A stretch of DNA of 64,000 bases, from assembly GCA_026168455.1 (NCBI GenBank), contig CM047425.1, forward strand, positions 42,304,711 through 42,368,710, written 5' to 3'. Shown piece after piece: positions 42,151 to 62,350 of this stretch (positions are counted from its first letter, which is position 1; each line of letters begins with the position of its first letter). A program made the translations under genes and the position numbers. A model generated the notes under the pieces. That model saw nothing but the letters and a program-made list of their open reading frames with translations, did no database searches and had not been told where the DNA came from. The stretch is from Theocolax elegans (Eukaryota; Arthropoda; Insecta; Hymenoptera; Cerocephalidae).

Positions 42151-42158
42151 TAAACGCG

Positions 42159-42700
42159 TGTTACGTCAAACAGTCATGCTATTATATTTTACCGCTTTTT
42201 AGCCAACAAATAATTGTTAGAGCTGGGGACAGGTCAATATACAATATTAATTATAACTACTCTTACTATTAACTGTAAATTATTAATTTATGCTGGTTTA
42301 GTTATTATTAATAACTGTAATAATTTTATATTATAAATTTCGTATTAATCAAAAAAAATTATTCTATATCAACCCGTATCTTACGATCCTGGGTTGAATT
42401 ATTGTTAATGTATTAGTATCTTTTATATGTGCTTTTATTAGTTTAATTAAATTATTAGATTTTGTAATAGAACTATTATTTCCAAATGTTAGGTAATTAT
42501 ATAAATGCATATGCACAATTACAGTTAATATCCGAACCCTAAGGTTCTTGATAAACAAATCGTACCATAAAGGTCCTTATTTGATTACTGAAATTGTACC
42601 TATGTTTTATTTAATATAAATAACTATAATTTCAATAGTTTATCGAACTCAAAAGTTCAGATAAAATCAACCGGACCAAATTGGTCCTTGTTGATAATTG

Positions 42701-42737
<37 letters not shown>

Positions 42738-44025
42738 TTATTCTATTAATTTAGTATAAATGATTATAAATTCAATAGTTTATCGAACTTAAAAGTTCAG
42801 ATAAAATCAACCGGACCAAATTGGTCCTTGTTGATAATTGAAAATTATAACCCTTTATACCCAAAATTAATATTTTTAGAATTCGTAACAATATAATTAC
42901 AAAAATTACAGTTTTATCGGTACACTTATGTCCAGACAATATCAATTCGTACTTAGAAAAGTCCAGGATTGATTAATTCAATTATAAATAATTACAAACA
43001 AAAGCACGTGTTAAGGTTAACAATTAATACCCGTACCTCTAATTATAGTGGTCCAGAGTAACAAATCGTACCCGAAGGTCCTTATTTGTTAATTGTTAAA
43101 TTTATTTATTGTTAGTAATTTTTTAGATACCAGTACCCATAAGGTTAGTTATATAATTCAATTATAAATAATTATAACAAAAGCACGTGTTAAGGTTAAC
43201 AATTAATACCCGTACCTCTAATTATAGTGGTCCAGAGTAACAAATCGTACCCGAAGGTCCTTATTTGTTAATTGTTAAATTTATTTATTGTTAGTAATTT
43301 GTTAGATACCAGTACCCATAAGGTTAGTTATATAATTTAATTATAAATAATTATAACAAAAGCACGTGTTAAGGTTAACAATTAATACCCGTACCTCTAA
43401 TTATAGTGGTCCAGAGTAACAAATCGTACCCGAAGGTCCTTATTTGTTAATTGTTAAATTTATTTATTGTTAGTAATTTGTTAGATACCAGTACCCATAA
43501 GGTTAGGTATATACTTACTTTTTTTTGTTTTAAATGAAATGACGAATTTTCAATTGGACAAGGTTTTCGAGTTTATTTGGAGATGTTGTTACAGAGACGT
43601 TTGGGAGCAAAAGAAGCATAAGCATGCCTTGTGACCTCTGCTTTTATACCCTTGGGCCTCTGGAAAAACTGGGGTTGAGGGTGGGGGTGCATGCTCAAGC
43701 TTTTCTTTTACCCAAAACATCTGTTTTACAGATATCCTTAAAAACTAAATAATCTAATCAAGACTTCGTATAAAAATTCCCCTTAAATTCACACTTATAC
43801 ATACTTGTTCATGATAAAAATAACAAATATCTATTTATATAAAAAAATATACGTATTTTATTGTAAAAATTGGGCTGAATAAATTCTATTTAACTAACTA
43901 AACTAGAAATAACGTACAACTAGATGGTATTATTGATATTAAGTAAAAGAAATTATATTTAATTATTTAATTAACAACAAAATACGCATATGTTTTCTTA
44001 TGCATTACGTATACATACATACATG

Positions 44026-44063
<38 letters not shown>

Positions 44064-45390
44064 CATTTATACGTAAGATTCTATGTAAAATAGTTGCTTA
44101 TTAATGGTTTATATTATTTAAATAATTGATATTGATTATTTAAACAATGAAATAATAAGTTATAGTATTGAATAATAATTTTGTCAGTTTATTATTAACT
44201 ATTCTTATTATTATTGCTTCAATAACTATAATTATTAAATCATTGTATCATCTATAAATATATACACATATATGTACGTACAATATAGATACAACAAAAC
44301 GTTAATCAATTGAGTAGAACAAAAATGTGTAAAATAAACTTAATAACAATTGTTTAAAAATATTATGCTTGCCTGTAAGTAGTGAATCAATATTTAATTA
44401 TTATAATTCGTTACTATTTATTTAACTATTTTAAAACTTGAGTAAGTATTTAAAATATATTAACTAAACAAATTGGTTATTTATCTACGTAAAATTTAAC
44501 CTTATACATACGCATATATACATGTAATATTTTTCTATGTAACAATAATTAGTTCCTTTTTTTATAAAATATATGTATGTATTCAAATTACATACATAAG
44601 CCATGTATATATATCTATATGCATAATTATTTTATAACTAAACTTAAACTCGATCGATAAACTATAAGTGCAAGCCTAGAATATAAGAAAAATTATTATT
44701 TTTAAGAGCTATAATATTTGTATTTCTTAAATTATAATTCTTATTTATTTGTAAAAATAATGTCAACTAAAAGGAATAAACTATTAGACGCATTGGAAAA
44801 TATATAGTAAATATTTATCTCTATTTATTTAATTAAAATACATTATAGCTACACATAATATTAAATAATTAACTAATTAAACATTGGTTAATTACCATCA
44901 TAACTTTTCTTATATTATATTATATGCGAAATTACATACAAACAGATGCTTATTTAATAGTAACAATATATCAAAATCTATTACTTATCCTAATTAAACG
45001 GTATAATAAAATCAAAGTATCATTATATTTAAATTCACTTGCTAGATTCAATTCATTATGCATTGAATTTAATTTACATCGTTTGGAAAAATAAAGCGAA
45101 TGGAAAATTCTAGGCTAAAGTAAACCCAAAAAAAACTCTTCGAGAAAGGAGTCATATTTCCCTTTTTTACGACTTTCAGATGCATCGGTCAACTGTCGCT
45201 CGGGCATCTGCTTTCTTTCAATTGATTTTATTGCTTAAAGATGTGCATGGCACTTTTCTTGGGTTTTTCCCAACGCTTAAACCTTCCGATCGTCTAACTT
45301 TTATTACTAAGAATTACAATCAAGAACTCAAATTTACTTGTTTTAAAATATACTATATTTATTAATAACTAAATGTTACTAGACGTAACA
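42159..45390 (-). repeat. 3' LTR of the retroelement (3,232 bp)
   Basis: Same sequence as 57,659-60,902 apart from microsatellite lengths and a few substitutions. It contains three copies of a ~179-bp unit, a (TA)n run near 42,709, a second near 44,033, and many short hairpins. There is no gene in it: the readings at 42,364-42,558 and 45,180-45,365 are just open frames present in both LTRs. Confidence 0.95.
43001..43510. repeat. Tandem repeat inside 3' LTR, about 179-bp unit, 3 copies
   Basis: The word aaagcacgtgttaaggttaa starts at 43,001, about 43,180 and about 43,359. Each unit continues with cccgtacctctaatt, ggtccagagtaac, gtacccgaaggtcc and agtacccataaggtta. The same array is at about 58,502-59,010 in the other LTR. 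Upstream (42,530-42,850) two further related units have gaactcaaaagttc and ggaccaaattggtcc palindromes. Confidence 0.9.
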
Positions 45391-45471
45391 CCCGACGCCT
45401 TAAACGGTTGCTAGGTATAAAAAAAATATACGTAGCAATCGTTACTATTCTCCATCACAAAATCAATCTAC
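45391..45471 (-). other. env-to-3' LTR spacer with hairpin
   Basis: On the - strand, TTGCTACGTAT, a T-rich loop and ATACCTAGCAA form an imperfect hairpin (about 45,412-45,442), ending 21 bp from the LTR. A long polypurine tract is not obvious; the last bases before the LTR read AAGGCGTCGGG. Confidence 0.45.
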
Positions 45472-47427
45472 TTATAATTGAAAGAAACTCTTCTCGCTGG
45501 TTGTGGCTGAGTCCTTAGGTACTACACTCCTAGTACTTGGTGTAGGATTGATGTCCAAAACGTCTTCCTTTACTTTAGTTAGTAATTCTACGTTAGTAGG
45601 TTTGTTTATGTTTTCTTCTGGTTTTCTGCCTGCGTGGATTAAGCAATAAGCCAGTGAACTCCATACAGCTCCTAATAGATGAATGGACCATCCATAGACT
45701 TGGTGAAGTAGGTACCCATTGATTACCATACTAATAATCATTTTTATTCCATGAATTATCACTAGAATTGCTATTACTCCTGCGCTGGCTGTACCAAAGG
45801 TGATAAATTTTCCCCATAGTCTTCCCCATGCTGATTCCACAATCTTTTCCATAGCTTCATCGTTGAGTAGTTTACTAATGGTTCCTTCTTGATCAGAAAT
45901 AGGATGTCCTTGCATTTCTCTCGCTACGTCATTTAATAACGCGGATTTTTCAACAGGAAACATAATATGATCTCTTAATTGATTAAGATCACTCTCAGTA
46001 TAAATACCGCTTGTAGCTAATGAGGATGGGTTGATATACTTCCATGTAGATTTCGTCAATGGTTTAATGATGATGGGGCTGTGAGCTTCAGTAACAGCTG
46101 GCAGAATTTTATACCATTCACTACCAACTTGATAATATGAAGGTAACAATTTATTGCAAGATACTCTCGTTCCTTTTGCCTTGAGAACATGCGTTCTTGG
46201 TGTTAGAAATCTTGTGGTATTTTTATAAGAAACTTGTAACTCAGCATAACAAACTGTATCTTCTTTTATCTTAACCTCAACAGGAACACATTTAATAACA
46301 TGGACAACTTCTCCCGCAGTAACTGCCATATATCCTGGTCCCTTCATTAAATTATAAGCAAATTGATCAGGTGCTTGAGTGGCGATAGCTAAGGAATTTT
46401 TAAGAGTTTGACGTTCTAAGTCACATTTTTGCATTAATACATCACGATAAAGTTGCTTAATTTGAGTTCTTAAATGTTTTTCAACGTATACAAACTTTGA
46501 ATTAACATACGCAAAAATATCTAAATTAGTAACGCTTTTAGTAGTACGACTAGCAAAAGACTCACCCTTAATAGTTTCAAAAATTACTAACTTAGGATGT
46601 TCAGTACGCATAATAGTATAACCGCATACAGATTCTTCCTTACTAATAGATAATGCGAAAGTAATATCTTGAGTAGATATGGAATATACCGTAGGTTCTC
46701 TTTCCGGTGAAAGATCAACAATTTTATTTGCGTATCCTTCATACAGAATACTAAATCGTGAAAATTTGCAGGAATCAACTGGAATTGGATTCCAAAAAGA
46801 ATAACCATCTTCCATATCTAAACAAGAACCTTCAGATAAATGACACGAAGTACCGGATTGTAAATATATCTTATTATTATTATTATCAACGCGCGCAACG
46901 TGAGTCTTGAGTGTAACCTTGACAATACCTTGAACGACGACTGATGGCCAGGATCCATAGGGATCTGCGTAAGATGCTCCACTGCAGGAACCATCTTTAT
47001 CTACAGTTCCAGCAAAAACCATAGGATAACTTGACGTTCTGTTTATTCTTAAGCCACTAATGATGCCGTTATAACCAATTTTTAAGATTCCGGTAGCATG
47101 TGCTTCTTGACATCTCTCACGACTTATGTCAAGGATGAATTCAGCTTGGCTATTAACTACTTCTGAATTATAAGATTGCCATCCACAATAATAAGCAGTT
47201 CTGCGAATCTCCACTTTGCATTGTATTACGGAATTATCTAGGAATTCATTAATTTGAAGTAACTGTAGGTGTTTTTTAGTTACGTTCAAATTATCACTTG
47301 GAATATCGCACGGTCCTACATCTAATAATGATAAGGTCGTAATATTTAACGACCTAGCTCCACAATCAAATCCTATTAACGCGTTGACCAAAGGTAGTAG
47401 AAATAAACATATTATAGGAGAATTCAT
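45472..47427 (-). CDS. env: Envelope glycoprotein, chuvirus-like
   Basis: This is a 651-residue open frame. The N-terminus is a hydrophobic signal-like segment followed by LIGFDCGARSLNITTLSLLD. Many Cys and several N-x-S/T sites follow, and a strong hydrophobic span at about residues 545-600 (TASAGVIAILVIIHGIK and onward) precedes a polar tail. The FDCGA-x-x-LN-(I/V)-TT-x-SLL-(D/E)-V opening and the following Cys pattern resemble chuvirus (Mononegavirales relatives) glycoproteins, which have been captured by insect LTR elements. It differs from baculovirus-F-like env of classical errantiviruses. It would mediate membrane entry of particles. No internal stop is seen. Family identity is from motif memory and needs a profile search. 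Confidence 0.75.
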   Translation of the reverse strand: MNSPIICLFLLPLVNALIGFDCGARSLNITTLSLLDVGPCDIPSDNLNVTKKHLQLLQINEFLDNSVIQCKVEIRRTAYYCGWQSYNSEVVNSQAEFILDISRERCQEAHATGILKIGYNGIISGLRINRTSSYPMVFAGTVDKDGSCSGASYADPYGSWPSVVVQGIVKVTLKTHVARVDNNNNKIYLQSGTSCHLSEGSCLDMEDGYSFWNPIPVDSCKFSRFSILYEGYANKIVDLSPEREPTVYSISTQDITFALSISKEESVCGYTIMRTEHPKLVIFETIKGESFASRTTKSVTNLDIFAYVNSKFVYVEKHLRTQIKQLYRDVLMQKCDLERQTLKNSLAIATQAPDQFAYNLMKGPGYMAVTAGEVVHVIKCVPVEVKIKEDTVCYAELQVSYKNTTRFLTPRTHVLKAKGTRVSCNKLLPSYYQVGSEWYKILPAVTEAHSPIIIKPLTKSTWKYINPSSLATSGIYTESDLNQLRDHIMFPVEKSALLNDVAREMQGHPISDQEGTISKLLNDEAMEKIVESAWGRLWGKFITFGTASAGVIAILVIIHGIKMIISMVINGYLLHQVYGWSIHLLGAVWSSLAYCLIHAGRKPEENINKPTNVELLTKVKEDVLDINPTPSTRSVVPKDSATTSEKSFFQL

Positions 47428-47450
47428 CTGAAATCAGAAGGAAATAAATT
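47428..47450 (-). promoter_or_regulatory. Splice acceptor abutting env start
   Basis: On the - strand, TTTATTTCCTTCTGATTTCAG lies directly before the env ATG: pyrimidine-rich tract and AG at 47,428-47,429. Env in insect Gypsy elements is made from a spliced mRNA, so this is very likely its acceptor. The donor was not identified. Confidence 0.7.
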
Positions 47451-47456
47451 TGTTTT

Positions 47457-49733
47457 TCATTCTGAATCTAAGCGAACCTTTCTTTTCTTAGGTTTCAACT
47501 TCGATTCACGATTAATATAAGAAATTCTTAACCGATTAGCATGTACTATTTTTTGTTTTTTATAAAATTGAATTTTAATATTATTTTTATTGATTATTTC
47601 TAATATTTTATGAGGGCCAGTATAATGATCTCCGAACTTATTAGGTTTTGGTTCTTTTAGTAAGAATACAAAATCTCCTACTTTAAAATTTTTTTCATTT
47701 ATTTTTCGGTCATAATATTCTTTAGATTTATGTTTACTTTGAACTAAATTATCATAAGTTAATTTACGTATCCCATTTAATCTTGTTACTAGTTCCTTGA
47801 TATATCCTTGATAAGTAGGTAATAAATCTGCTTCTCTTAAAGGTTCATTTGATGGTAATCTTGCCAAAAATCCGAATACAACTTCAAATGGTGTATGTCT
47901 CGTACTTTCATGTACACAGGTATTATAATTTAATATTGCTATTTCGACCCATTGATCCCAATTATTATCCTTTTCGGTGTATTGTTTTAAAAATTCACCC
48001 AGAGCATGGTGTGAACGTTCAAGTGCCCCATTAGATTGTGCGTGGAACGATGTCGTTTTAATTTGTTTAATCTTGAATCGTTTCGCAACCCTCTGCATTA
48101 ACGAACTTAAAAAGTTACGCCCTTGGTCTGTTAAAATGACCCGAGGAGCTCCGAAAATACACAAAAATCTTTTAATAAATGCGTCAGCTATAGTTGAAGC
48201 TAATGCATTTGGTAAAGGTACCGCTACACAAAACTTTGATAATTGATCTTGAATAGTTAGTATATATTCATTATTCAAAGTAGTTTTACATAATGGTCCA
48301 ACAATATCTAAGGCCACCTTCGAAAACACAGTTCCAGGTGTATCCGTTATTACCATAGGTTGCTTTGTTTTTAATCTAACTAATTTCTTGAGTTGACATT
48401 CTAAACATTGCTGTATTCGCCTTTGTATATCTCCCTTAAGATTTTCCCAATAATAATACTGTCTTACTCTATTAAATGTTTTAGATACACCTCTATGTCC
48501 ACCGATAGGAGATGTATGAAATTCGTAAAATATACTATCTCTTTTATCTTGAGGAACATATTGTAAAGTTCCTTTACAAACAATTATCTTTATATTATAT
48601 TCTTGAAATATAGATTTAATCATATCTATAATATCGCTCCATGGTAAATTCTCGATATATTTATTTTTAGCAATACTAATTTGACTAATGTTTTTATCTT
48701 TTAATGCTTTGCATAGGTTATTAAGTGCTTTATATATATTTGACTTAATAATTGACTGGGATTCAAATTCATTTCCTCGTATGCTTAATCCAAAATAATA
48801 TTTATTATTTGATTTTTTATATTCGGAAAAACTTCCAATACCAACATTTTGTTTTTCAGGTATTATATTTCTTTTTATCAATTTTTCTGCTCCAATGTCA
48901 CATGGTTTACCATTGGATGTTATAAAGTAAATTATATTGTCATTTCTATATTCTAATAATTCTTTTGTTTCAACAATATTAAATTTTATATCAAATTTTT
49001 CTTCTTTATTCATTTTTTGAGAATCTTCAGAGTCTTCAGTTTCACTATTTTCAGATATACTTTCTTCTTGTCCTTTTATAGGTTTCCTTTTCTTGTAATA
49101 TTCTTCCATAAATGATGTTTCAACATCATTATTAATTGAATTATATTCATGTTGAAGATTTGTAACTTCATTATTTTCATTATTTATAATACTTGCTTCA
49201 ATATCTCCATCACTTAACTCGCTTTCTTCATAATTTATTGTTTTATTATTATATCTCTTTAAAATTGATCTAGATTGATTATTTTGATTATTCTCCTTGT
49301 TAATTATATCTTCTTCTTTTAATAATTCTTCATTTTCTTTTATTTGATCACAAATTTTTGATTCTTCAGTTTTTGATTTATTAAAATTTTTATTTTTAAC
49401 ATTTTTATTCCTTTTGTTTGGTTTGTTAATTACTTGACATTTCTCCCTTTCATCAGTTTGTTTTTCTTTATCTTCTAATTTCTTTTGTCTCCTAGTTACA
49501 ACATTTACATCAAATTTTTCTACTGGGTTTCTAGACAGGGCGTCAGCATTTACATTTAGCTTCCCAGGTTTATATAAAATATTATAATCATATTCAGAAA
49601 GTTTAAATCTCCATTTCTGAACTCTAGTATTTAACTCTGCAGATTGAAACCAAATTAACGGTCTATGATCTGTTATAATTGTAAATTTTCTGCAAAAAAC
49701 ATATGGCCTAAAAGTTTTTACACTGTGTATCAT
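47457..49733 (-). CDS. pol: Pol: RNase H end, macro-like segment, integrase
   Basis: The 758-residue frame starts inside RNase H (FTIITDHRPLIWFQ, NADALSRNP). Residues about 75-245 are acidic and Asn/Lys-rich, and 248-390 resemble a macro domain. The integrase follows: zinc finger H-H-C-C (GGHRGVSKTFNRV ... CLECQLKK, 405-450), core D at VALDIVGPL (~475), D at ILTDQGRNF (~536), E at ALERSHHAL (~572), and a GPY/F-like C-terminal part (YTGPHKIL, ~700). It is the continuation of the RT frame after a one-base frameshift near 49,815. It ends 29 bp before env. Confidence 0.9.
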   Translation of the reverse strand: MIHSVKTFRPYVFCRKFTIITDHRPLIWFQSAELNTRVQKWRFKLSEYDYNILYKPGKLNVNADALSRNPVEKFDVNVVTRRQKKLEDKEKQTDEREKCQVINKPNKRNKNVKNKNFNKSKTEESKICDQIKENEELLKEEDIINKENNQNNQSRSILKRYNNKTINYEESELSDGDIEASIINNENNEVTNLQHEYNSINNDVETSFMEEYYKKRKPIKGQEESISENSETEDSEDSQKMNKEEKFDIKFNIVETKELLEYRNDNIIYFITSNGKPCDIGAEKLIKRNIIPEKQNVGIGSFSEYKKSNNKYYFGLSIRGNEFESQSIIKSNIYKALNNLCKALKDKNISQISIAKNKYIENLPWSDIIDMIKSIFQEYNIKIIVCKGTLQYVPQDKRDSIFYEFHTSPIGGHRGVSKTFNRVRQYYYWENLKGDIQRRIQQCLECQLKKLVRLKTKQPMVITDTPGTVFSKVALDIVGPLCKTTLNNEYILTIQDQLSKFCVAVPLPNALASTIADAFIKRFLCIFGAPRVILTDQGRNFLSSLMQRVAKRFKIKQIKTTSFHAQSNGALERSHHALGEFLKQYTEKDNNWDQWVEIAILNYNTCVHESTRHTPFEVVFGFLARLPSNEPLREADLLPTYQGYIKELVTRLNGIRKLTYDNLVQSKHKSKEYYDRKINEKNFKVGDFVFLLKEPKPNKFGDHYTGPHKILEIINKNNIKIQFYKKQKIVHANRLRISYINRESKLKPKKRKVRLDSE
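48563..48992 (-). other. Macro-like segment between RNase H and integrase
   Basis: Residues about 248-390 of the pol frame read DIGAEKLIKR, QNVGIGSFSEY, KYYFGLSIRG, then KALNNLCKALKDKNISQISI and WSDIIDMIKSIFQE followed by IKIIVCKG. This order matches macro (ADP-ribose-binding) folds: a GAG-like loop with helix, V-x-x-G strand, YYL strand, helix L-x-x-L, IA-x-P-like strand, and final helix W-x-x-(V/I)-x-x-x-(I/L)-x-x-x-F. The Gly-rich loops that bind ADP-ribose look degenerate, so activity is doubtful. Confidence 0.5.
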
Positions 49734-49780
49734 AGCTAAAGCTTCTTTTTCATAAGTATCATATCGAAGTTCAGGGCCTC

Positions 49781-51253
49781 TTAATACTCTTGATGTATAA
49801 GCAATTGGTTTATCTTACCAATCTCTCCTTGAGATAAAATACCTCCTACTGCATAACCAGATGCATCCGTAGTTATTAGAAACGGTTTACTCATATCTGG
49901 AAATTGTAATAAAGGTGCTGTACATAATGCATTTTTTAATGTTTGAAAAGATTGTTCAATTTCTTCATTCCAAACAAAATTTTCTTCTTTTTGCAAAAGC
50001 TTAGTCATTGGTTTAGCTATTTTCGCGAAATCTTTAATAAATCTCCTATAATAACCTGCTAGTCCTAAAAATTGCTTACTATTTTTCCTATTCTTTGGCC
50101 TTGGATATTCTTTAACAGCTTCAATTTTCTTTGGATCTGGGTTTAAACCTTTTTCACTTAAAATATGTCCTAAGTAGGTAACTTCTCTTTTTAATAATTC
50201 ACATTTTTCTGGCTCTAATTTCCAATTGGCTTTTCTAAGTCTGTCCATAACTAAATTAAATAATCTTTCATGTTCTTCTAAAGATTTTGCATATATAACA
50301 ATATCATCCATATACACAAAAACTCCTTTTCCAATTAAACCTGCTAATGTAATTGACATAGCTTTTTGGTATTCAATTCCTGCACAACAAAGTCCAAATG
50401 GCATCCTGATAAACTCGTAATGTCCATTAGGAGTAGAGAATGCGGTCTTATGAGCATCTTTTTCATCTAGCATAATTTGATGAAAACCAGCTACACAATC
50501 AATAACACTATAAAATTTTCCATGTCCGATCTGATCAAATATATCTGTTATATTTGGTAATGGAAAATTTTGAGGAATCGTTTTTTCATTTAATGGACGA
50601 AAATCTAATACTACTCGCCATTTTGGTTTTCCATCTGAACCTGCTTTCTTAGGTACTACCCATAAACTAGTATTATATCCTGAACTAGATGGTCTTATAA
50701 TGCCTTTTTTTAATAAATCCTGCACTTGTCTTTCTACCTCTTCTTTTAAGGCATGTGGTAAACGATATTGTTTTGTATTAACTGGTAGATCATCTGTTGT
50801 TGGTATCTTATGTGTAGTTATATTAGTAGCTGTTAATTCGTCTCCCTCTAAATGAAATCTATCTGCATTTCTTTCAATTAATTTAAGAGCTTGTTCTAAT
50901 TCTTCACCCTTTAAATGATCTAATTTAATTTTTTCTTTTAACAAACAAACACGATTTGTAATTTTACATATTTTAACATTACCATCTATATTTCCCTGAG
51001 ATTTAATAAAATATACCTTTATATTAATTTGTAAATTATCATTATCTACATTTAATAATTCAAATGTCTCTATATCCGATATTTGTTTAGTATATAGATT
51101 AGATAAATTTGTAAATTGAGTCGCATAATCGGATAGAACTATATTATTATTTTTAATTACGTTTTCTTTATTTAAATTATCTTGTGAATTTATAATCTTT
51201 ATATTATATTTATTAATCAGAAACATATTTAAATTAAAGTCTATTATTGCCAT
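49781..51253 (-). CDS. pol: Pol: reverse transcriptase
   Basis: This 490-residue frame has Gypsy-type RT motifs: WRVVLDFRPLNEKTIP (~213-228), motif A SVIDCVAGFHQI (~249-260), RMPFGLCCAG (~283-292), catalytic YMDDIVIYA (~314-322), and the thumb with YLGHILSEKGLNPDPKK. It enters RNase H (PFLITTDASGYAVGGILSQG) and then shifts frame. It copies the genomic RNA into DNA. Its N-terminal part (MAIIDFNLNMF) belongs to the end of the second protease domain, because a frameshift near 51,295 separates it from the upstream frame. There is otherwise no stop. Confidence 0.95.
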   Translation of the reverse strand: MAIIDFNLNMFLINKYNIKIINSQDNLNKENVIKNNNIVLSDYATQFTNLSNLYTKQISDIETFELLNVDNDNLQINIKVYFIKSQGNIDGNVKICKITNRVCLLKEKIKLDHLKGEELEQALKLIERNADRFHLEGDELTATNITTHKIPTTDDLPVNTKQYRLPHALKEEVERQVQDLLKKGIIRPSSSGYNTSLWVVPKKAGSDGKPKWRVVLDFRPLNEKTIPQNFPLPNITDIFDQIGHGKFYSVIDCVAGFHQIMLDEKDAHKTAFSTPNGHYEFIRMPFGLCCAGIEYQKAMSITLAGLIGKGVFVYMDDIVIYAKSLEEHERLFNLVMDRLRKANWKLEPEKCELLKREVTYLGHILSEKGLNPDPKKIEAVKEYPRPKNRKNSKQFLGLAGYYRRFIKDFAKIAKPMTKLLQKEENFVWNEEIEQSFQTLKNALCTAPLLQFPDMSKPFLITTDASGYAVGGILSQGEIGKINQLLIHQEY

Positions 51254-51279
51254 TGATTTTTCGAAAAATTCCGCACCAA

Positions 51280-51909
51280 TTATTCCGTCACTATTATAAT
51301 AGCAAAATTATCAGGTATTACCTGAAACTTTATTTTTTCATCATATATAGTAAATTCTACTAACCCAAGAGTTTTCTCTAGTTGACCACTAATTCCCATT
51401 AAATATACCGATTCATTTGCATTTATTACACAATCTTCTGGTATTAAGCTCTTTTTAATTAAATTACCTTCTGCACCGGTATCTAATAAAAATTGAGTAA
51501 CTGCTCTTGAATTAGGTTTATAAATTTTTATATATGGTAAACAATTTGTATTTGCCAATCGAAGATTTACTACTCTACCAGTTTTAACACGAAAATTTGG
51601 GTTATTATTCTGATTAAAACTTACTTCTTGATTATTAATTATTAAATTTTTATTTTTAAAATCAATTATTGACTTACTATCATAAAAAAATTTTGAGCCT
51701 AATATCCCACTGTAAGGTATCGGAAAATTATTTTCTACTACGTAAAATTTAGTTACATGATTGAATATATTTAAATTTACGGTTCCTAAAGTTTCAATAG
51801 CTATATTAGAAATTCCCGTTAAAATAACATTTTCATTCAAATTTATATTTATATCGTCCGGTAAAAATCCTATTCTAATTACATTTCCCTGAGAACCTGT
51901 ATCTAGCAT
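51280..51909 (-). CDS. pro: Pro: two tandem retropepsin domains
   Basis: The frame is the same as gag and continues beyond gag's UAG. Two successive aspartic-protease domains are seen. The first has MLDTGSQGNVI (residues 1-11), flap-like ILTGIS and SGILGSKFF (~67-75). The second has LLDTGAEGNLIKK (~142-154), flap-like LMGISGQ and, after a frameshift near 51,295, its GIIGAEFF end. Retropepsins are usually single domains that dimerise. The tandem arrangement could give a single-chain protease. In family logic it releases gag and pol products. The second domain is disrupted by the frameshift in this copy. Confidence 0.8.
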   Translation of the reverse strand: MLDTGSQGNVIRIGFLPDDININLNENVILTGISNIAIETLGTVNLNIFNHVTKFYVVENNFPIPYSGILGSKFFYDSKSIIDFKNKNLIINNQEVSFNQNNNPNFRVKTGRVVNLRLANTNCLPYIKIYKPNSRAVTQFLLDTGAEGNLIKKSLIPEDCVINANESVYLMGISGQLEKTLGLVEFTIYDEKIKFQVIPDNFAIIIVTE

Positions 51910-51978
51910 AAGGTCGATTATTTTATTTGTCTTTAAATCCTTTATTGATATATACGGGATAAGTTTACTAGCGGTTAT

Positions 51979-51981
51979 CTA
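51979..51981 (-). other. In-frame UAG between gag and pro
   Basis: Gag and the protease reading are in the same frame, separated only by this TAG (context AAT TAG ATA). Sense codons continue without break for about 24 codons to the first protease Met at 51,909. It may be a readthrough-type gag-pol junction as in gammaretroviruses, or a mutation. No clear downstream pseudoknot was examined. Confidence 0.5.
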
Positions 51982-53712
51982 ATTCAATGGTAAAAGTTCG
52001 GTAAATACGTCTTGAGTTTGAATGCAATTGGTTGAACGCGTTGCATTTGGTGTAGTCTCCCTTACCGCGTTCGCTTGCTGGAGACCCATCGCGTTTCCCG
52101 ACTGATTTCTCTCATTATATTGTTTTTTTCTACAAACTGAGATATCATGACCTACGTTTTTACAATAATCACAAGTCTTAACTTCCCCATTTCTTTTATC
52201 TCTACATGTGGCTGCTGTATGACCTATACGTTGACAAATTTGGCACGATAATTTAGCTCTGGCCTCAAACTGATTTTTAAAGAAACAATTCTCTGCTAAA
52301 TGACCGGGTTTACTACATACTTGACAGTTAGATATAACTACTCTACACTGGGCAGCTGTATGACCGGGTTTATTACATCTTTGACACGAAAAATTAATAT
52401 TATTTTGTCTCTTAAAAACCTTATTACATTTATCTGCCAAATGTCCAGGCAAGTGACATAATTGGCATTTAATAGTACAATTACTAGACGTATGTCCAAA
52501 TCGATTACACGATTGACATTTAATATTTGCTTGATTTTTTAAAGAATAACATTTATCGGCCGTATGCCCATTACGTTTACAAAGCTGACAAACATTTGTA
52601 GGTTGAGATTTAAATTTACAATTATTATTATCATGCCCTTCCTTTTTACATATTGTACAAGTATATACTGGTTTTTTTATTGCCTTTACATTGGAACTTG
52701 AATCTATCTTATCTTTATTTCGATGTCTTAACGCAAGTTGAGCTTCTAATATTTTTTCAGCTTTAATCGCGTTTCTCACAATATTAGTCATATCATCAGC
52801 ATTTTCTAATTTATTTTCAATTTCTGGTTTTAAACCGCGTTTAAAACTTTCTATTATATTTTTCTCTACTGAAGTTCTAAAAACATCATCTATTGTATTA
52901 TTATTATTTAATTTATGTACATCAGTTATTCTTCTACCTATATCTCGAATCCGATTTGCGAATGATATAACTGATTCGTCATCTCTTTGAAATTCATGGC
53001 CTAAATCTCCTTGTAATTGTTGTACAGTTTTTGCAGGGAAATAAATATTTTTTATAAATTCTTTTAGTGAATCGACATTTTTAAATGATTGCCCATGAAT
53101 TGCTCTGCGTGCTTCACCAGTTATTTTTGATCGCAACAATTTAGTTAAATTTAATTCATTTTCTGGACCTATCATTTCTTTGGCTTCGTCACAGCCTTCA
53201 AAAAATAAACTAATAGATGAACTGCTTCCATCGAATTCAGGTACTATTTTTAACGCGTCTTTTAAAGGTACTGCTTGAATAACAGTATTCATTTTTGGCT
53301 CCGTATTATTAGCTGTAGTAGCCATTTTAACGTTATTTCTATAGTTATCTAATTGGTTTTTATCTTGCTTCTTTTGATCCTTAAGTTTTTGTAATTTTAA
53401 ATTTTCAATCTCTTCTTGCCTTTTTAATATTAATTCCTTTTCTAACCTCGCTTCTTCAATTCGTTTTTGTATCTCTATTTCCCTATTCCTACGTTCTATT
53501 TCCCTTTCGGAATCGCTCAATTCTTCGCTTGATTGTTCGGTGTCAGAAAGAATATTAAATGACTTATTATATTCTAAAAAGAAATCCTTCGCAGGTACAA
53601 ACTCTTTGTCTATACTGGGTTCTAATTCTTTCGACCTATCAAAGTTAATATTTTCTACTATTTCTTTCTCTTTCCTACTTTTACTCCTAGTTCTTCTCGG
53701 ACTATTACTCAT
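51979..53712 (-). CDS. gag: Gag with eight CCHC zinc knuckles
   Basis: This is a 577-residue open frame. After a basic start (MSNSPRRTRSKSRKEKE) comes a charged coiled-coil region (~65-125, RRNREIEIQKRIEEARLEKE), then a capsid-like helical region (~145-340, IVPEFDGSSSSISLFFEGCD ... SFKRGLKPEIENKL). Between ~352 and ~530 are eight CCHC knuckles (C-x2-C-x4-H-x4-C), such as CTICKKEGHDNNNC and CQRCNKPGHTAAQC. Gag packages RNA and forms particles. The frame ends in TAG at 51,979-51,981, after which the same frame stays open into protease. Confidence 0.95.
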   Translation of the reverse strand: MSNSPRRTRSKSRKEKEIVENINFDRSKELEPSIDKEFVPAKDFFLEYNKSFNILSDTEQSSEELSDSEREIERRNREIEIQKRIEEARLEKELILKRQEEIENLKLQKLKDQKKQDKNQLDNYRNNVKMATTANNTEPKMNTVIQAVPLKDALKIVPEFDGSSSSISLFFEGCDEAKEMIGPENELNLTKLLRSKITGEARRAIHGQSFKNVDSLKEFIKNIYFPAKTVQQLQGDLGHEFQRDDESVISFANRIRDIGRRITDVHKLNNNNTIDDVFRTSVEKNIIESFKRGLKPEIENKLENADDMTNIVRNAIKAEKILEAQLALRHRNKDKIDSSSNVKAIKKPVYTCTICKKEGHDNNNCKFKSQPTNVCQLCKRNGHTADKCYSLKNQANIKCQSCNRFGHTSSNCTIKCQLCHLPGHLADKCNKVFKRQNNINFSCQRCNKPGHTAAQCRVVISNCQVCSKPGHLAENCFFKNQFEARAKLSCQICQRIGHTAATCRDKRNGEVKTCDYCKNVGHDISVCRKKQYNERNQSGNAMGLQQANAVRETTPNATRSTNCIQTQDVFTELLPLN

Positions 53713-53715
53713 TAA

Positions 53716-54012
53716 TTACTTCAATTTTAAATTTTTCATTAAAGTTTCTATATTCCTAATCGCGGCTTCCTGTTCTAAAAACGTACTCTGGTATTCTGCT
53801 AATAAAATTTTTGTTTCTGCATTGGATTTAGAAAGAGCTTCTATCCATTTAAAGAAAAATCCTAATTTTCTCTCAATTCTCTCAATTTTACAACGTAATA
53901 TCATACAATTAATTGCTAATGTTTGACCGTTGTCATCAAGCGATTCTAATTGTTCATTAATTTCCGTATATCGATTTTCTGAAAATCCTGTTACAACTCT
54001 TCGTAAAGACAT
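53716..54012 (-). CDS. Accessory ORF, 98 aa, immediately before gag
   Basis: It begins MSLRRVVTGFSENRYTEINE and ends in a heptad-like region (TKILLAEYQSTFLEQEAAIR). Its stop is 3 bp before the gag ATG. The predicted protein is helical, with no known motif. The tight spacing to gag suggests reinitiation, a separate spliced message, or both. It is open and recently inserted like the rest. I do not recognise it. It could be non-coding by chance, though 98 codons in such A+T-rich DNA is long. Confidence 0.5.
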   Translation of the reverse strand: MSLRRVVTGFSENRYTEINEQLESLDDNGQTLAINCMILRCKIERIERKLGFFFKWIEALSKSNAETKILLAEYQSTFLEQEAAIRNIETLMKNLKLK

Positions 54013-54044
54013 TTAATAAAAAAAAAATAAAAAAAAAAAAAAAA

Positions 54045-54350
54045 TTATTTATTTAAATCTAAAACTCTGAATTGCTCAATTAATTCATCGACAGAATTAT
54101 TTCTGCTACCAATTATACTATTGATCTCATTAATAATTTCTTTTATATCATGGTCAATTTTACTTAAATTGTTTATTTTTAAAGTATATATATTAAGTTT
54201 CTTTTCAACTTTATCAAATTTCTTTAAAAGTATATAATAATAATGATATAATTTACTATAATAAGTACTTAATTCGACAACGTAATCATTAATATCAGCT
54301 AATTGATCTTCTGTACCTTCAAAAATAATCTTTACAAAATCAGGCGTCAT
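54045..54350 (-). CDS. Accessory ORF, 101 aa, coiled-coil
   Basis: It begins MTPDFVKIIFEGTEDQLADI and contains YYSKLYHYYYILLKKFDKVE, then a leucine/isoleucine-rich C-terminal half (HDIKEIINEINSIIGSRNNS). It has a helical, coiled-coil-like profile and no known enzyme motif. It lies between the 77- and 98-aa ORFs, 32 bp from the latter, on the - strand. Function unknown. Confidence 0.5.
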   Translation of the reverse strand: MTPDFVKIIFEGTEDQLADINDYVVELSTYYSKLYHYYYILLKKFDKVEKKLNIYTLKINNLSKIDHDIKEIINEINSIIGSRNNSVDELIEQFRVLDLNK

Positions 54351-54390
54351 ATAATTAATTATTAAATTAATATTTGTTACTATTGCTAAA

Positions 54391-54624
54391 TTAATTAACT
54401 TCGTTAAAAATCGACCATTCTCCGTAGCTTTTGTAATACGAAATAGGATCTTGTGGGTAAGCCCAATATACTACTTCTCTATCCAAAGCAAAACCGTGAT
54501 TATCGGTAGATATTATGGTTGGATAATTTTTTACTAAATTTAATAATTTGTCATTCAATTCGAGAGGTAATTCAAAATATGTTGAAGGACATATGCAACC
54601 ATCAGCTAATTGTAGATATGACAA
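54391..54624 (-). CDS. Accessory ORF, 77 aa
   Basis: It begins MSYLQLADGCICPSTYFELP and includes STDNHGFALDREVVYWAYPQ. It has a well-mixed amino-acid composition, unlike the Asn/Lys/Ile bias expected from non-coding A+T-rich DNA; this is the main reason to take it seriously. Aromatic-rich, no signal peptide, no known motif. It is the first ORF after the 2.3-kb leader. Confidence 0.45.
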   Translation of the reverse strand: MSYLQLADGCICPSTYFELPLELNDKLLNLVKNYPTIISTDNHGFALDREVVYWAYPQDPISYYKSYGEWSIFNEVN

Positions 54625-56906
54625 GGATTTATTATCAGATTGAAAATATCATAAATACCCTTGAGAGATTCCTCCAGTATGATATAAATAAACCTTATCA
54701 AAATATTTATTTAACTCATAAGTTAAGATTTTATAATAATATTTACAATGTAACTATCAGATTTCACTATAACACTAAAAAAAATTTAGTCTTTTATCTG
54801 AATTTGTGAAACAAGGTATTTGGGATACGGACTACGGAACTAGGAACATGCGTATATACCGTACAATTGGTACAGTGACGCAGCCTTACTATTTTGTTTT
54901 ATTTCTGTCAAGTGACACTACCTGAAGTTCCAAATTATTTTGACAGGTAACCTAACCCTAAATAGAAAAAGAGCAAGATCTTGAAATATTTAAACAAATT
55001 TATATACTTTAAAAGATTTATTGTGAATAAAATTCTAAAATAAGCTGTTATTTATGCAAAGAAATATTCCTCATTCATACCTTTAACCATAAATGTAAAT
55101 TTTAGTTGTACGCTGAATATAAATTTATTAATATTGCTTCCTTTGTATTAATATTATTAACTATTTATAAATTTTATTCAATTTAGACTATAATAATTGA
55201 AATATTCTAATTCTAACTACTAACATGGAGTTGAATTGAATAATAGTTGAATTTATTAAAATTTAGGGGTACGCTGGAAATATCATATATGCACTTCTTG
55301 AAATTTATTTATTTATCCAACTCAGTACAATTGTATCATTTACATTAATACTCAATTTCAACTACAAAGGTTCCTTTAAATCTCAAAAACTTGATATAAA
55401 ATGATCATTAGCATTTTCACAAAATTCTAAGTTATACGCTGATAATGCAAATCTTGTTTTCAGCTCTAATAACAAAAATATGATTTACAACAGATTGTTC
55501 ATATAATAATCATTTACTTATTCATTATTAAGGATAGAAAACACATGGTTTAATTGATTTCAAGTTTTATTTAAGATTTTGACTATAAAATGTTGGATGT
55601 TAAAATTTTTCAAGTTTACGCTAAAATTGACATTTATCTAATTTTGAAAATTACTAGTTTAATTTACACAGACATAACAATTGTTATCTCTATTAGCTAT
55701 TATTGTACTAACATTGAAATTCTAATTAGAATCTATCGTCAGTTTAGATTTTACAGTAAAATTTTACTATAAACTGAGTAATAATATTTTATACAAAAAT
55801 CAGGTTATACGCTGAAAACTCTAATATTGTTTCCAACTTATTAATTATAATATTAAGTTACATTAGTTTCTCAGAATTACAACTAATTATTTATTTATTA
55901 TTAAGGAGAGAAAGTACAATAATTATTCAATTTGAATTTATTTTTATTATTTTTACTGGAAAAGTTGAATATCAAAATTTTTCAGGGTTACGCTGATGCT
56001 TGAAATAACTCTTTCAGCTTCCCTGACTACAATTTTGAAAATAAACTAGCTTTTATTATTGCAAATAGTTTATCATATGATATTGAAAATTAATTACAAA
56101 TGTTATTATAACTAAACTTTATTTTTAAGGATTTTTACTAGAATTGTGTGTAAAAAAAAATTTTTCCTGGTTACGCTAAGTACTAAAGGTAGTTTTTATT
56201 TGACTTATATGCAAATTATATTTTATTGTAACAAAGTAGGTATGTTAAAATAATTTAATCAATAATATTCCAGCTTGATGATTTCTTTAATTACTTACAA
56301 TTGGTTATTGTACTTTCTTATCTATTATATTGATATTTCTGACTTCAAGAACTAATTTACAAAATTTTTAACATCTAATATTTGTTTGAATATAAATAAT
56401 TATACTTGTTTTAAAAATGAATTTCAACTATACATAACCATATTAATTCTAAGGCTAATACTAAATTCTTATAATCAGTTAGAATTGAAAATACCTAAAA
56501 TTCAGGGTTCGAAGGAATTCAAACTTTTTGAAAAATTTTTATTAATTATGGTTTTAACAACTGAATAACTATTTCTACCTTATTTTTATAGTGTAACTAA
56601 CTGCTATTAATATAAAAAATAAAAATAATTATAATAGTATTGTTTTTAATACTAGGTGAGGAGTGGGGGTAGGGACCGATACAATCAATTTTCAAGCATA
56701 TCAAATTTTATACTAAATTTACAGGTTTTTTATTCATCATAACACTGAAATTTTATAATAACCATTTCTTCCTAACAATATAAGTGTAATTTTATAATAA
56801 ATCTTATTCTCTATAATACTAAATTTATAATTTTCTACTACTAAATTATACAATAACTCTTATTTAATATAGTTTATACATATTTAGCCTAGAATTATAA
56901 AAAAAT
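54625..56906 (-). other. Leader region with periodic TACGCTRA motif
   Basis: A 2.28-kb stretch without credible ORF. On the + strand, tacgct(g/a)(a/g) occurs at 55,109, 55,270, 55,435, 55,617, 55,808, 55,989 and 56,172, with spacings of 161-191 bp. Usually it is preceded by a T-rich tract and ggtt or agtt. A degenerate instance (ttcagggttcg) lies at about 56,500. Between the motifs the sequence has diverged. It looks like an ancient tandem array in which only the motif is conserved. Confidence 0.75.
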
Positions 56907-57539
56907 CTATTTTTTTATATTGTTAATAAAATTCATGACCCAGAACTTATCCTTTTTTTCTATTTTCCAATCTTCTGGGTCATAACAAAACTTCGCGTCA
57001 AAACAGTCTTTACAATATTCGCTCTTAGGTTGAATTTGGCAACTCCTACAATAAGTGGTATCTCTATACCTTTTATTACTTATTTCTAATGGTAATCTTT
57101 TACCTTTTCCGAATTTAGGTAAATTCTTAAGAACTATATTTGGTTTTTCTACCCTTACAACCTTCGGTAATTTCCTTACTTTCTCTATTATTACCGATTC
57201 GTCTTCGCTATCTGATATTACAATTGATTCCGCGGTAATTTGGGAGTTCTTTTGAAAACTACTTTTTAGTAAGCCTTTTTGTACTTCTAAAGCCTTAGCT
57301 GATTCTTCTACATATTTCTCTAATTCGATAATATTTTCTCGCTGCTCTAAAATATTTTCTATGCGCGGTAAATTTTCTTGAATCGATTTATACGATATAT
57401 TTATGTCTACGACTAACAACGCGGCCCGTTCTTTCAATTTTTGCCTCTGCTCCCGAATTTTTTGCCGCTGATGTTTATTCCGGGCGCATCTCTTTTTTGT
57501 ATTTTTATCGTTTTTTAAGAAAAATTTCTTTCCGGTCAC
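56907..57539 (-). CDS. Accessory ORF, 210 aa, basic with Cys-rich C-terminus
   Basis: The first ORF after the 5' LTR and primer-binding site. The N-terminus is very basic (KRCARNKHQRQKIREQRQKL), suited to RNA binding or nuclear import. A helical part follows (ENILEQRENIIELEKYVEES), then a possible SUMO-interacting motif (SIVISDSEDES, residues ~105-115), and a Cys pair pattern CRSC-x8-CKDC-x5-C (residues ~164-185) that could bind zinc. I know of no family match. Position and layout recall regulatory proteins of complex retroviruses, but this is inference only. No internal stop. Confidence 0.65.
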   Translation of the reverse strand: MTGKKFFLKNDKNTKKRCARNKHQRQKIREQRQKLKERAALLVVDINISYKSIQENLPRIENILEQRENIIELEKYVEESAKALEVQKGLLKSSFQKNSQITAESIVISDSEDESVIIEKVRKLPKVVRVEKPNIVLKNLPKFGKGKRLPLEISNKRYRDTTYCRSCQIQPKSEYCKDCFDAKFCYDPEDWKIEKKDKFWVMNFINNIKK

Positions 57540-57630
57540 TGCAACGAGAAAAAGAGGGAGAAAAAAAAAAATTATTTTAAATTAGCTGCAAAACTATAAT
57601 TATATATTAATTGACCTGGCGGCTCACTAT

Positions 57631-57648
57631 ATCCCTCCGGGGCCTCCA
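57631..57648 (-). promoter_or_regulatory. Primer-binding site
   Basis: On the - strand, TGGAGGCCCCGGAGGGAT starts 10 nt inside the 5' LTR end. TGG is the complement of tRNA CCA. The first ten bases match the 3' end of some threonine tRNAs as I remember them, but the rest does not clearly fit, so the primer tRNA is uncertain. Confidence 0.55.
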
Positions 57649-57658
57649 TTAATTTTTC

Positions 57659-58200
57659 TGTTACGTCAAACAGTCATGCTATTATATTTTACCGCTTTTT
57701 AGCCAACAAATAATTGTTAGAGCTGGGGACAGGTCAATATACAATATTAATTATAACTACTCTTACTATTAACTGTAAATTATTAATTTATGCTGGTTTA
57801 GTTATTATTAATAACTGTAATAATTTTATATTATAAATTTCGTATTAATCAAAAAAAATTATTCTATATCAACCCGTATCTTACGATCCTGGGTTGAATT
57901 ATTGTTAATGTATTAGTATCTTTTATATGTGCTTTTATTAGTTTAATTAAATTATTAGATTTTGTAATAGAACTATTATTTCCAAATGTTAGGTAATTAT
58001 ATAAATGCATATGCACAATTACAGTTAATATCCGAACCCTAAGGTTCTTGATAAACAAATCGTACCATAAAGGTCCTTATTTGATTACTGAAATTGTACC
58101 TATGTTTTATTTAATATAAATAACTATAATTTCAATAGTTTATCGAACTCAAAAGTTCAGATAAAATCAACCGGACCAAATTGGTCCTTGTTGATAATTG

Positions 58201-58239
<39 letters not shown>

Positions 58240-59526
58240 TTATTCTATTAATTTAGTATAAATGATTATAAATTCAATAGTTTATCGAACTTAAAAGTTC
58301 AGATAAAATCAACCGGACCAAATTGGTCCTTGTTGATAATTGAAAATTATAACCCTTTATACCCAAAATTAATATTTTTAGAATTCGTAACAATATAATT
58401 ACAAAAATTACAGTTTTATCGGTACACTTATGTCCAGACAATATCAATTCGTACTTAGAAAAGTCCAGGATTGATTAATTCAATTATAAATAATTACAAA
58501 CAAAAGCACGTGTTAAGGTTAACAATTAATACCCGTACCTCTAATTATAGTGGTCCAGAGTAACAAATCGTACCCGAAGGTCCTTATTTGTTAATTGTTA
58601 AATTTATTTATTGTTAGTAATTTTTAGATACCAGTACCCATAAGGTTAGTTATATAATTCAATTATAAATAATTATAACAAAAGCACGTGTTAAGGTTAA
58701 CAATTAATACCCGTACCTCTAATTATAGTGGTCCAGAGTAACAAATCGTACCCGAAGGTCCTTATTTGTTAATTGTTAAATTTATTTATTGTTAGTAATT
58801 TGTTAGATACCAGTACCCATAAGGTTAGTTATATAATTTAATTATAAATAATTATAACAAAAGCACGTGTTAAGGTTAACAATTAATACCCGTACCTCTA
58901 ATTATAGTGGTCCAGAGTAACAAATCGTACCCGAAGGTCCTTATTTGTTAATTGTTAAATTTATTTATTGTTAGTAATTTGTTAGATACCAGTACCCATA
59001 AGGTTAGGTATATACTTACTTTTTTTTGTTTTAAATGAAATGACGAATTTTCAATTGGACAAGGTTTTCGAGTTTATTTGGAGATGTTGTTACAGAGACG
59101 TTTGGGAGCAAAAGAAGCATAAGCATGCCTTGTGACCTCTGCTTTTATACCCTTGGGCCTCTGGAAAAACTGGGGTTGAGGGTGGGGGTGCATGCTCAAG
59201 CTTTTCTTTTACCCAAAACATCTGTTTTACAGATATCCTTAAAAACTAAATAATCTAATCAAGACTTCGTATAAAAATTCCCCTTAAATTCACACTTATA
59301 CATACTTGTTCATGATAAAAATAACAAATATCTATTTATATAAAAAAATATACGTATTTTATTGTAAAAATTGGGCTGAATAAATTCTATTTAACTAACT
59401 AAACTAGAAATAACGTACAACTAGATGGTATTATTGATATTAAGTAAAAGAAATTATATTTAATTATTTAATTAACAACAAAATACGCATATGTTTTCTT
59501 ATGCATTACGTATACATACATACATG

Positions 59527-59576
<50 letters not shown>

Positions 59577-60902
59577 TTTATACGTAAGATTCTATGTAAA
59601 ATAGTTGCTTATTAATGGTTTATATTATTTAAATAATTGATATTGATTATTTAAACAATGAAATAATAAGTTATAGTATTGAATAATAATTTTGTCAGTT
59701 TATTATTAACTATTCTTATTATTATTGCTTCAATAACTATAATTATTAAATCATTGTATCATCTATAAATATATACACATATATGTACGTACAATATAGA
59801 TACAACAAAACGTTAATCAATTGAGTAGAACAAAAATGTGTAAAATAAACTTAATAACAATTCTTTAAAAATATTATGCTTGCCTGTAAGTAGTGAATCA
59901 ATATTTAATTATTATAATTCGTTACTATTTATTTAACTATTTTAAAACTTGAGTAAGTATTTAAAATATATTAACTAAACAAATTGGTTATTTATCTACG
60001 TAAAATTTAACCTTATACATACGCATATATACATGTAATATTTTTCTATGTAACAATAATTAGTTCCTTTTTTTATAAAATATATGTATGTATTCAAATT
60101 ACATACATAAGCCATGTATATATATATCTATATGCATAATTAGTTTATAACTAAACTTAAACTCGATCGATAAACTATAAGTGCAAGCCTAGAATATAAG
60201 AAAAATTATTATTTTTAAGAGCTATAATATTTGTATTTCTTAAATTATAATTCTTATTTATTTGTAAAAATAATGTCAACTAAAAGGAATAAACTATTAG
60301 ACGCATTGGAAAATATATAGTAAATATTTATCTCTATTTATTTAATTAAAATACATTATAGCTACACATAATATTAAATAATTAACTAATTAAACATTGG
60401 TTAATTACCATCATAACTTTTCTTATATTATATTATATGCGAAATTACATACAAACAGATGCTTATTTAATAGTAACAATATATCAAAATCTATTACTTA
60501 TCCTAATTAAACGGTATAATAAAATCAAAGTATCATTATATTTAAATTCACTTGCTTGATTCAATTCATTATGCATTGAATTTAATTTACATCGTTTGGA
60601 AAAATAAAGCGAATGGAAAATTCTAGGCTAAAGTAAACCCAAAAAAAACTCTTCGAGAAAGGAGTCATATTTCCCTTTTTTACGACTTTCAGATGCATCG
60701 GTCAACTGTCGCTCGGGCATCTGCTTTCTTTCAATTGATTTTATTGCTTAAAGATGTGCATGGCACTTTTCTTGGGTTTTTCCCAACGCTTAAACCTTCC
60801 GATCGTCTAACTTTTATTACTAAGAATTACAATCAAGAACTCAAATTTACTTGTTTTAAAATATACTATATTATTAATAACTAAACGTTACTAGACGTAA
60901 CA
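57659..60902 (-). repeat. 5' LTR of the retroelement (3,244 bp)
   Basis: Nearly identical to 42,159-45,390. It differs in (TA)n lengths (58,206 and 59,534 regions) and in scattered bases such as aaacgttac for aaatgttac near its + strand right end, cttgcttgatt for cttgctagatt, and aattagttt for aattatttt. It contains the three-copy ~179-bp array at about 58,502-59,010. As the 5' LTR in - orientation it should hold the promoter; I could not place a core promoter. Confidence 0.95.
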
Positions 60903-60906
60903 CGCG

Positions 60907-61967: not shown

Positions 61968-62350
61968 CAGTTGTAAAACTCTTCGAAATGAACCTATACT
62001 TAAGAAACCTATACTTTCAGTCGGCTTAGACTTCAGTAATGCTCTTATTTACACAACTATACGCACTAATACAACTAAAATTGGAATAGCATCTGCCACA
62101 GTACAATTGCGAAGCATCTCAAAGACCCAAACTCATCGGGGCACCTATTGTATTCGAGCGCGTACCTGCCTACCTGCGCCGCATTCCGGCAGCGCATCGC
62201 ACAACTTTAAAGAAAATAGCCATAGCATCAAAACCGCTGCGAATTTCACTTTAAAATTTTAACAGCATACTATTGACATGTTACACTATCGACTTATGTA
62301 ATAAAAAAAAATCGATTTTTCAATCGATCTATACGAGGATACCCCCTTAA

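Follow-up and report, generated by a model that had tools for sequence, protein, structure and literature searches.

A Ty3/Gypsy element with a chuvirus-type env gene and close copies in the genome of Theocolax elegans

In mosquitoes, the BEL/Pao element Anakin has captured a chuvirus glycoprotein (Dezordi et al. 2020, PMC7642597), and the errantiviruses, or insect endogenous retroviruses, carry an env of the baculovirus F type that is expressed by splicing (Senti et al. 2025, PMC12992720). Mosquito gypsy elements with "type III fusion glycoproteins" receive a mention, citing Chary and Hayashi 2025, in excerpts of a more recent paper (EMBO Rep 2026, PMC13172572). In Hymenoptera, Gypsy fragments are abundant beside Jingchuvirales glycoproteins, but the passages concerned report "no clear evidence" that Gypsy has captured these glycoproteins (Dezordi 2023, PMC10084718), and 224 glycoprotein endogenous viral elements (EVEs) of ants form clades without close relatives among the exogenous viruses (Flynn and Moreau 2019, PMC6540820). 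Here we analyze a stretch of 64,000 nucleotides of Theocolax elegans DNA (contig CM047425.1 of assembly GCA_026168455.1; the window), in which one Ty3/Gypsy element on the minus strand, organized in the order gag, pol, env, fills positions 42,159-60,902. It is very probably a recent, provirus-like insertion of an insect endogenous retrovirus whose env descends from the class III fusion glycoprotein of a chuvirus (Jingchuvirales). Its principal features, including the two long terminal repeats (LTRs) and the reverse transcriptase (RT), are as follows.

42155..42158: target-site duplication CGCG, left copy (sequence)
42159..45390, minus strand: 3' LTR, 3,232 bp, TG...CA (alignment with the other LTR)
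45472..47427, minus strand: env, 651 amino acids, chuvirus-type class III fusion glycoprotein (PF24664) with a long C-terminal helical part (Pfam, predicted structure)
47457..49814, minus strand: remaining RNase H and integrase (H2C2 and rve; Pfam)
49781..51307, minus strand: RT and start of RNase H, the frame ending at a frame change within RNase H near 49,800
51280..51978, minus strand: protease region, in which two retropepsin-like domains, each with DTG, lie in tandem; the frame changes at ~51,980 and again, within the second domain, at ~51,300
51979..53712, minus strand: gag, 577 amino acids, with CCHC zinc knuckles, open (list of open reading frames [ORFs], Pfam)
57659..60902, minus strand: 5' LTR, 3,244 bp, TG...CA (alignment with the other LTR)
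60903..60906: target-site duplication CGCG, right copy (sequence)

The env product matches the Jingchuvirales/chuvirus profile PF24664 at 1.2e-232 over residues 5-628 of 651, and an F-type env, as in the errantiviruses, is rejected, PF24664 being the sole Pfam family matched up to E=1. The predicted env fold resembles those of chu-like virus glycoproteins, herpesvirus gB, and rabies G, the class III fusion fold, and its matches to post-fusion gB have Foldseek template modeling (TM) scores of about 0.31-0.41. The first-pass annotation of this DNA had proposed a chuvirus-type env in place of the F type and had read both gag and env as open, and profile, fold, and reading frames agree with it. 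A sequence search for solved structures of env returned two hits, both at chance level, and a scan of IMG/VR for env relatives returned 18 pattern matches, none of which was confirmed. A glycoprotein of OKIAV146, a "Hymenopteran chu-related virus" (P0091), is 50% identical to the window env and lies among other env proteins in the tree described below, at a weakly supported position; rather than the gene of a free virus, it may represent the env transcript of a retroelement.

The order protease-RT-RNase H-integrase and the Gypsy-type domains of Pol (RT_RNaseH, RT_RNaseH_2, Integrase_H2C2, and rve) place the element in Ty3/Gypsy (Metaviridae), as first annotated, and Gypsy-kind RT, RNase H, and integrase domains are found in the pol frames of three copies, with no BEL/Pao peptidase listed. 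The best solved relative of the RT is that of Ty3 (4ol8, 3.8e-60; 7q5b, 2.6e-59); the RT class rests on this best PDB match together with the domain set, the names "transposon 297" and "17.6" among the RT relatives being annotation labels only. A BEL/Pao hybrid like the mosquito Anakin, whose env is of the same kind (PMC7642597), is rejected by the Gypsy domain set and by Ty3 as the best solved match, and we assign it next to no probability.

The ends of the element are likewise those of Ty3/Gypsy, with an LTR pair bounded by TG...CA and a short target duplication (CGCG in the window, CTAC in copy L003). The LTRs differ by 4 substitutions in 3,230 aligned positions (0.12%), plus 16 gap columns, 12 of which, assigned by position, fall in two TA-rich microsatellites. 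The earlier estimates of 3.2-kb LTRs, about five differing bases, and a perfect target duplication are thus borne out, and the element can rightly be called very young because the LTR divergence is only 0.12%. At an assumed substitution rate of ~3e-9 per site per generation, the window copy would be about 200,000 generations old. Just beyond the element, positions 61392-62048 match a Mutator-like transposase (PF20700, 8.8e-07), so the insertion may sit in or near older transposon sequence.

Related copies are numerous. A search of the 658-Mb genome (1,277 contigs) scored 68 of 1,554 first-look env candidates; the counts of identical and stop-free matches, tallied by hand, are lower bounds. Four of the scored matches, including that of the window, have 100% identical env and lie at different sites. 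Twenty-five of the 68 loci were examined, comprising the window, five close copies, and 19 picked down the list. RNase H-integrase matches adjoin env in all 19, and RT does so in 17, with no RT in the stretch compared for L017 and L021; in L022 the match covers just the first 417 of the 785 residues of the window RNase H-integrase ORF. A Trichogramma kaykai protein model of 2,398 residues (P0246, TKK_0016653) aligns, in order, to the window gag (34% identity), RT (40-73%), integrase (55%), and env (52%); fused gag/pol/env gene models of this sort can mislead host gene counts. The element is therefore less unusual than first supposed, since the same kind recurs in this genome and in the T. kaykai model and since long LTRs occur in other families as well: paired LTR matches in five of these span 1,874, 1,817, 1,976, 757, and 3,478 columns at 99.7, 99.6, 99.9, 98.9, and 98.2% identity, respectively. 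These copies also bear on whether the env could be an ordinary EVE or a domesticated glycoprotein, beside or inside Gypsy debris and kept for antiviral defence. Solo glycoproteins are reported in mosquitoes (PMC7642597), and the Gypsy fragments around such glycoproteins in Hymenoptera come, in the passages cited above, without clear evidence of capture (PMC10084718), but the window env lies between two near-identical LTRs within a perfect duplication, is one of four identical copies at separate sites, and belongs to a group in which Gypsy pol adjoins env in 19 of 19 further loci, and we consider the EVE explanation very improbable.

The sister copies differ in their LTRs. L003 has full LTRs, with 14 differences in 3,063, flanked by a duplication of its own, L004 has mutually identical LTRs of ~393 bp with TATAT on either side, and L002 is missing its 5' LTR at the expected place. 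Each window LTR contains a 179-bp repeat three times and a 140-bp repeat twice, and both 393-bp LTRs of L004 lack a 2.85-kb stretch that corresponds to the following.

42181..45021: 2.84-kb stretch of the 3' LTR, with a TA microsatellite and the 140-bp and 179-bp tandem repeats (coordinates by offset)
57681..60534: equivalent stretch of the 5' LTR, 2,854 bp (LTR comparison)

In the orientation of the element, this stretch is close to the LTR's 3' end, and it has a direct repeat of ~11 nt at its borders. Long-form LTR sequence is present in L005 (env 94% identical) and, weakly (82%), in L007 (env 87%); L006 is unclear and L008 has no match. A new insertion in the long form is rejected as the simplest reading because L005 and L007 have that form, and the 393-bp LTR looks, from these comparisons, as though it arose by deletion between short direct repeats and was then passed on by replication. 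On contig C4, a distant second env (34% identity; L033:3493-5280) lies downstream of a copy with a 94% identical env, and L012, upstream of it, has a 602-codon frame on the opposite strand; this arrangement perhaps represents nested insertions.

The protease of the window is a tandem one, with 41% identity between its two domains over 81 residues. Five of eight pol frames of the genome (L009, L014, L016, L024, and L025) have two D[TS]G motifs ~140 residues apart, with 33-42% identity between the two domains, and three frames have a single motif (L028, L030, and L032). Outside the genome, nine RT relatives have at least 480 residues before the RT motif; one (P0127) has two protease motifs, seven have one (three of these start at the motif and may be cut), and one has none, and a search aimed at the protease region found five proteins with one motif apiece. 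The duplication is thus not general. Retroviral proteases normally act as homodimers, which makes the tandem arrangement a testable oddity.

The beginning of pol, which is in the -1 frame relative to gag, overlaps the end of gag by 133 nt, and a candidate slippery site lies 12 nt into this overlap.

52093..52099, minus strand: GGGAAAC, a -1 frameshift-type heptamer in phase with gag, 121 nt short of the gag end

A second in-phase run, AAAAAAA, directly precedes the overlap. An in-phase heptamer is present near the overlap start in seven of eight other loci, as GGGAAAC in L016, L024, L025, and L026 (the last two being a single family), AAAAAAC in L014, and TTTAAAC in L028 and L032.

Several points weigh against reading the window element as a provirus-like copy of an endogenous retrovirus. 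The heptamer counts are raw counts, L030 has no in-phase heptamer, and a stem downstream of the slippery site scores no better than shuffled sequence (z -0.26). The putative primer-binding site is a TGG-initial stretch 10 nt past the 5' LTR without an assigned tRNA, and no clear purine run precedes the 3' LTR as a polypurine tract. The env model is of middling confidence, with a predicted local distance difference test score (pLDDT) of 67, and most synonymous divergences (dS) between env genes are saturated, those of the more distant pairs being saturated or not computable. The 25 loci examined are not a random choice, and the T. kaykai model, which lacks the RT core (no RVT_1 domain and no YxDD), represents either a damaged copy or an erroneous gene model. 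The analysis draws on DNA sequence, and the pol of the element has frame changes relative to the sister copies near 51,980, 51,300, and 49,800.

Three sister copies have an env identical to that of the window. In two of them pol is open in a single frame, of at least 1,512 and at least 1,513 codons (lower bounds, as the stretch examined begins inside the frame), and in the remaining one (L011) the frame has 1,422 codons and is interrupted earlier. The window pol has 36 private substitutions, of which 30 fall between 51,000 and 52,000, and many are shared with L013, whose env is 89% identical to that of the window.

51208..51610, minus strand: patch common to L013; 26 of 32 comparable window-private substitutions match L013, all inside the patch

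By its pattern of substitutions, this segment of ~0.4 kb is a recombination or gene-conversion patch, and template switching in a two-genome particle is one reading of how it may have arisen. If the three frame changes were assembly or consensus errors, the copy would truly be intact, and three in one gene do look too many for an element whose env is 100% identical to that of three copies and whose LTR divergence is 0.12%; yet L011 is interrupted as well and the patch gives the window copy a separate history, so that we regard assembly error as possible but doubtful. A dying or non-autonomous family, in which the window copy and most others were mobilized in trans and env is now irrelevant, would accord with the broken pol here and in one of three sister copies, with a close relative (env 94%) that has a stop in env and only the end of integrase upstream, and with internal stops in 26 of the 68 scored env matches; among the five close copies, nothing but the last part of integrase is left in L012. 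Against this stand the single pol frames of two sister copies, the 42 or more of the 68 scored env matches that have no internal stop, and a ratio of nonsynonymous divergence (dN) to dS far below 1 in env where dS is usable. The window env and that of L006 (89% identical protein) have dN 0.06 and dS 1.07, and with L005 the dN/dS is 0.12 over 447 codons, which fits a need for entry in the spread of the element. A dying family is accordingly unlikely, and we retain the reading of a recent insertion from an env-bearing retrovirus lineage. Since the window copy can no longer encode Pol as a single piece, either its last round of copying was from a parent whose Pol worked or it received help in trans. 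The lineage as a whole looks live, open genes and almost identical LTR pairs being present in several families.

The "extra genes" of the first-pass annotation correspond to one likely spliced ORF of 221 codons after the 5' LTR and a 98-codon ORF before gag. These and the signals associated with splicing are as follows.

47428..47445, minus strand: splice-acceptor-like tract ATTTCCTTCTGATTTCAG, ending right before the env ATG (by eye)
53716..54012, minus strand: 98-codon ORF immediately upstream of gag, with a 43-49% identical protein in one other family (L043)
56907..57649, minus strand: probable accessory ORF0, 221 amino acids when spliced, with CxxC pairs near the C terminus (sequence reading)
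57539..57615, minus strand: predicted 77-nt intron (CCAG|GTCAAT ... TTGCAG; splice signals judged by eye)

The first exon of ORF0 starts with an ATG at 57,649, 9 nt beyond the 5' LTR. Each of the three sister copies has sequence that matches ORF0 (186, 168, and 26 residues, lengths limited by the end of the stretch compared or by truncation of the copy). It has no match in the 5' regions of five other families, none in L055, whose coverage of the corresponding place is not established, and no significant match in Pfam.

Comparison among families suggests that the env type is old. In a tree of 55 env rows, hand-chosen from those at hand and built by a quick method, the families of this genome are split among several groups, and rows of other origin, Trichogramma among them, fall between these, an arrangement which implies that the env type is older than the genome's families; its deep spread could be either by descent or by horizontal spread. 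Distances in pol and env correlate (r 0.86; 28 of 720 relabelings of the six families do as well), a correlation seemingly driven largely by one distant family. By the approximately unbiased (AU) test, pol rejects a clade of the window, L014, and L016 (p-AU 0.006) and a clade of L016 and L024 (p-AU 0.0006). We make no claim of env/pol swapping between families, because env does not reject a clade of the window and L024 (p 0.10).

In the cycle that we infer, with current activity, particle formation, germ-line infection, frameshifting, and splicing, a full transcript would yield Gag and, by -1 frameshifting at GGGAAAC as the overlap and heptamer suggest, Gag-Pol, and a spliced mRNA with its acceptor just before the env ATG would yield Env. 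By analogy with errantiviruses, Env would let particles from one cell enter another, most simply from the gonadal soma into the germ line. Reverse transcription and integrase would then give a new copy with a 4-5-bp duplication, a process to which the observed LTR pairs and duplications point.

Elsewhere in the window, plus-strand ORFs at 2364-2954 and 4598-5137, with a Helitron N-terminal domain and a PIF1-like helicase, are probably a Helitron remnant, and a 147-bp tandem array occupies 1031-1557. An ORF at 12026-12679 weakly matches AAA ATPases and the poxvirus A32 protein, all under curated cut-offs, and could, as a guess, be a Polinton/adintovirus-like remnant. No tRNA or Rfam family was found in the window.

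Somewhat short of even confidence, we propose more broadly that these elements form an insect retrovirus lineage, not found described as complete elements, that joins a class III entry protein of the chuviruses to Ty3/Gypsy and that has, in one family group, a tandem two-domain protease that is possibly single-chain and pepsin-like. Such a lineage would still be spreading through germ lines by infection and recombining between co-packaged genomes, and its env genes would account for many of the "chuvirus glycoprotein EVEs" in Hymenoptera and perhaps for some "chu-related viruses" of transcriptomes. The broad kind, Gypsy with such an env, is probably already in print; in the portions of the open-access literature consulted, no complete Gypsy/chuvirus-env element that also has a tandem protease was found described. 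The suspected Gypsy/chuvirus-glycoprotein link in Hymenoptera becomes, with this locus, a complete, young, multicopy element that has duplications, can be dated by its LTRs, and shows signs of selection on env. An entry protein of RNA-virus type and class III appears to serve Gypsy elements over deep divergence, separately from the BEL/Pao Anakin, and counts of Hymenoptera glycoprotein EVEs are suggested to be in part counts of retroelement copies rather than of RNA-virus infections.

Compared with the systems described, as far as the published passages at hand go, the window element is like Anakin in being an LTR retroelement with a chuvirus-type glycoprotein, but Anakin has a BEL/Pao pol and is found in mosquitoes, whereas the window element has a Ty3/Gypsy pol and its nearest named env relatives are hymenopteran. 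With the errantiviruses it shares a Gypsy-type gag-pol-env organization and, beside their spliced env, a splice-acceptor-like site before its own, although their env is of the F type and this one is of the class III chuvirus type. The mosquito gypsy elements with type III glycoproteins are the same combination of Gypsy and type III env, compared here through a brief mention that names neither a tandem protease nor long LTRs (PMC13172572). The Jingchuvirales glycoprotein EVEs of Hymenoptera belong to the same protein family and often adjoin Gypsy sequence (Dezordi 2023), but they are treated in those passages as endogenized virus genes, whereas here the glycoprotein gene is part of a complete, dated element with further copies.

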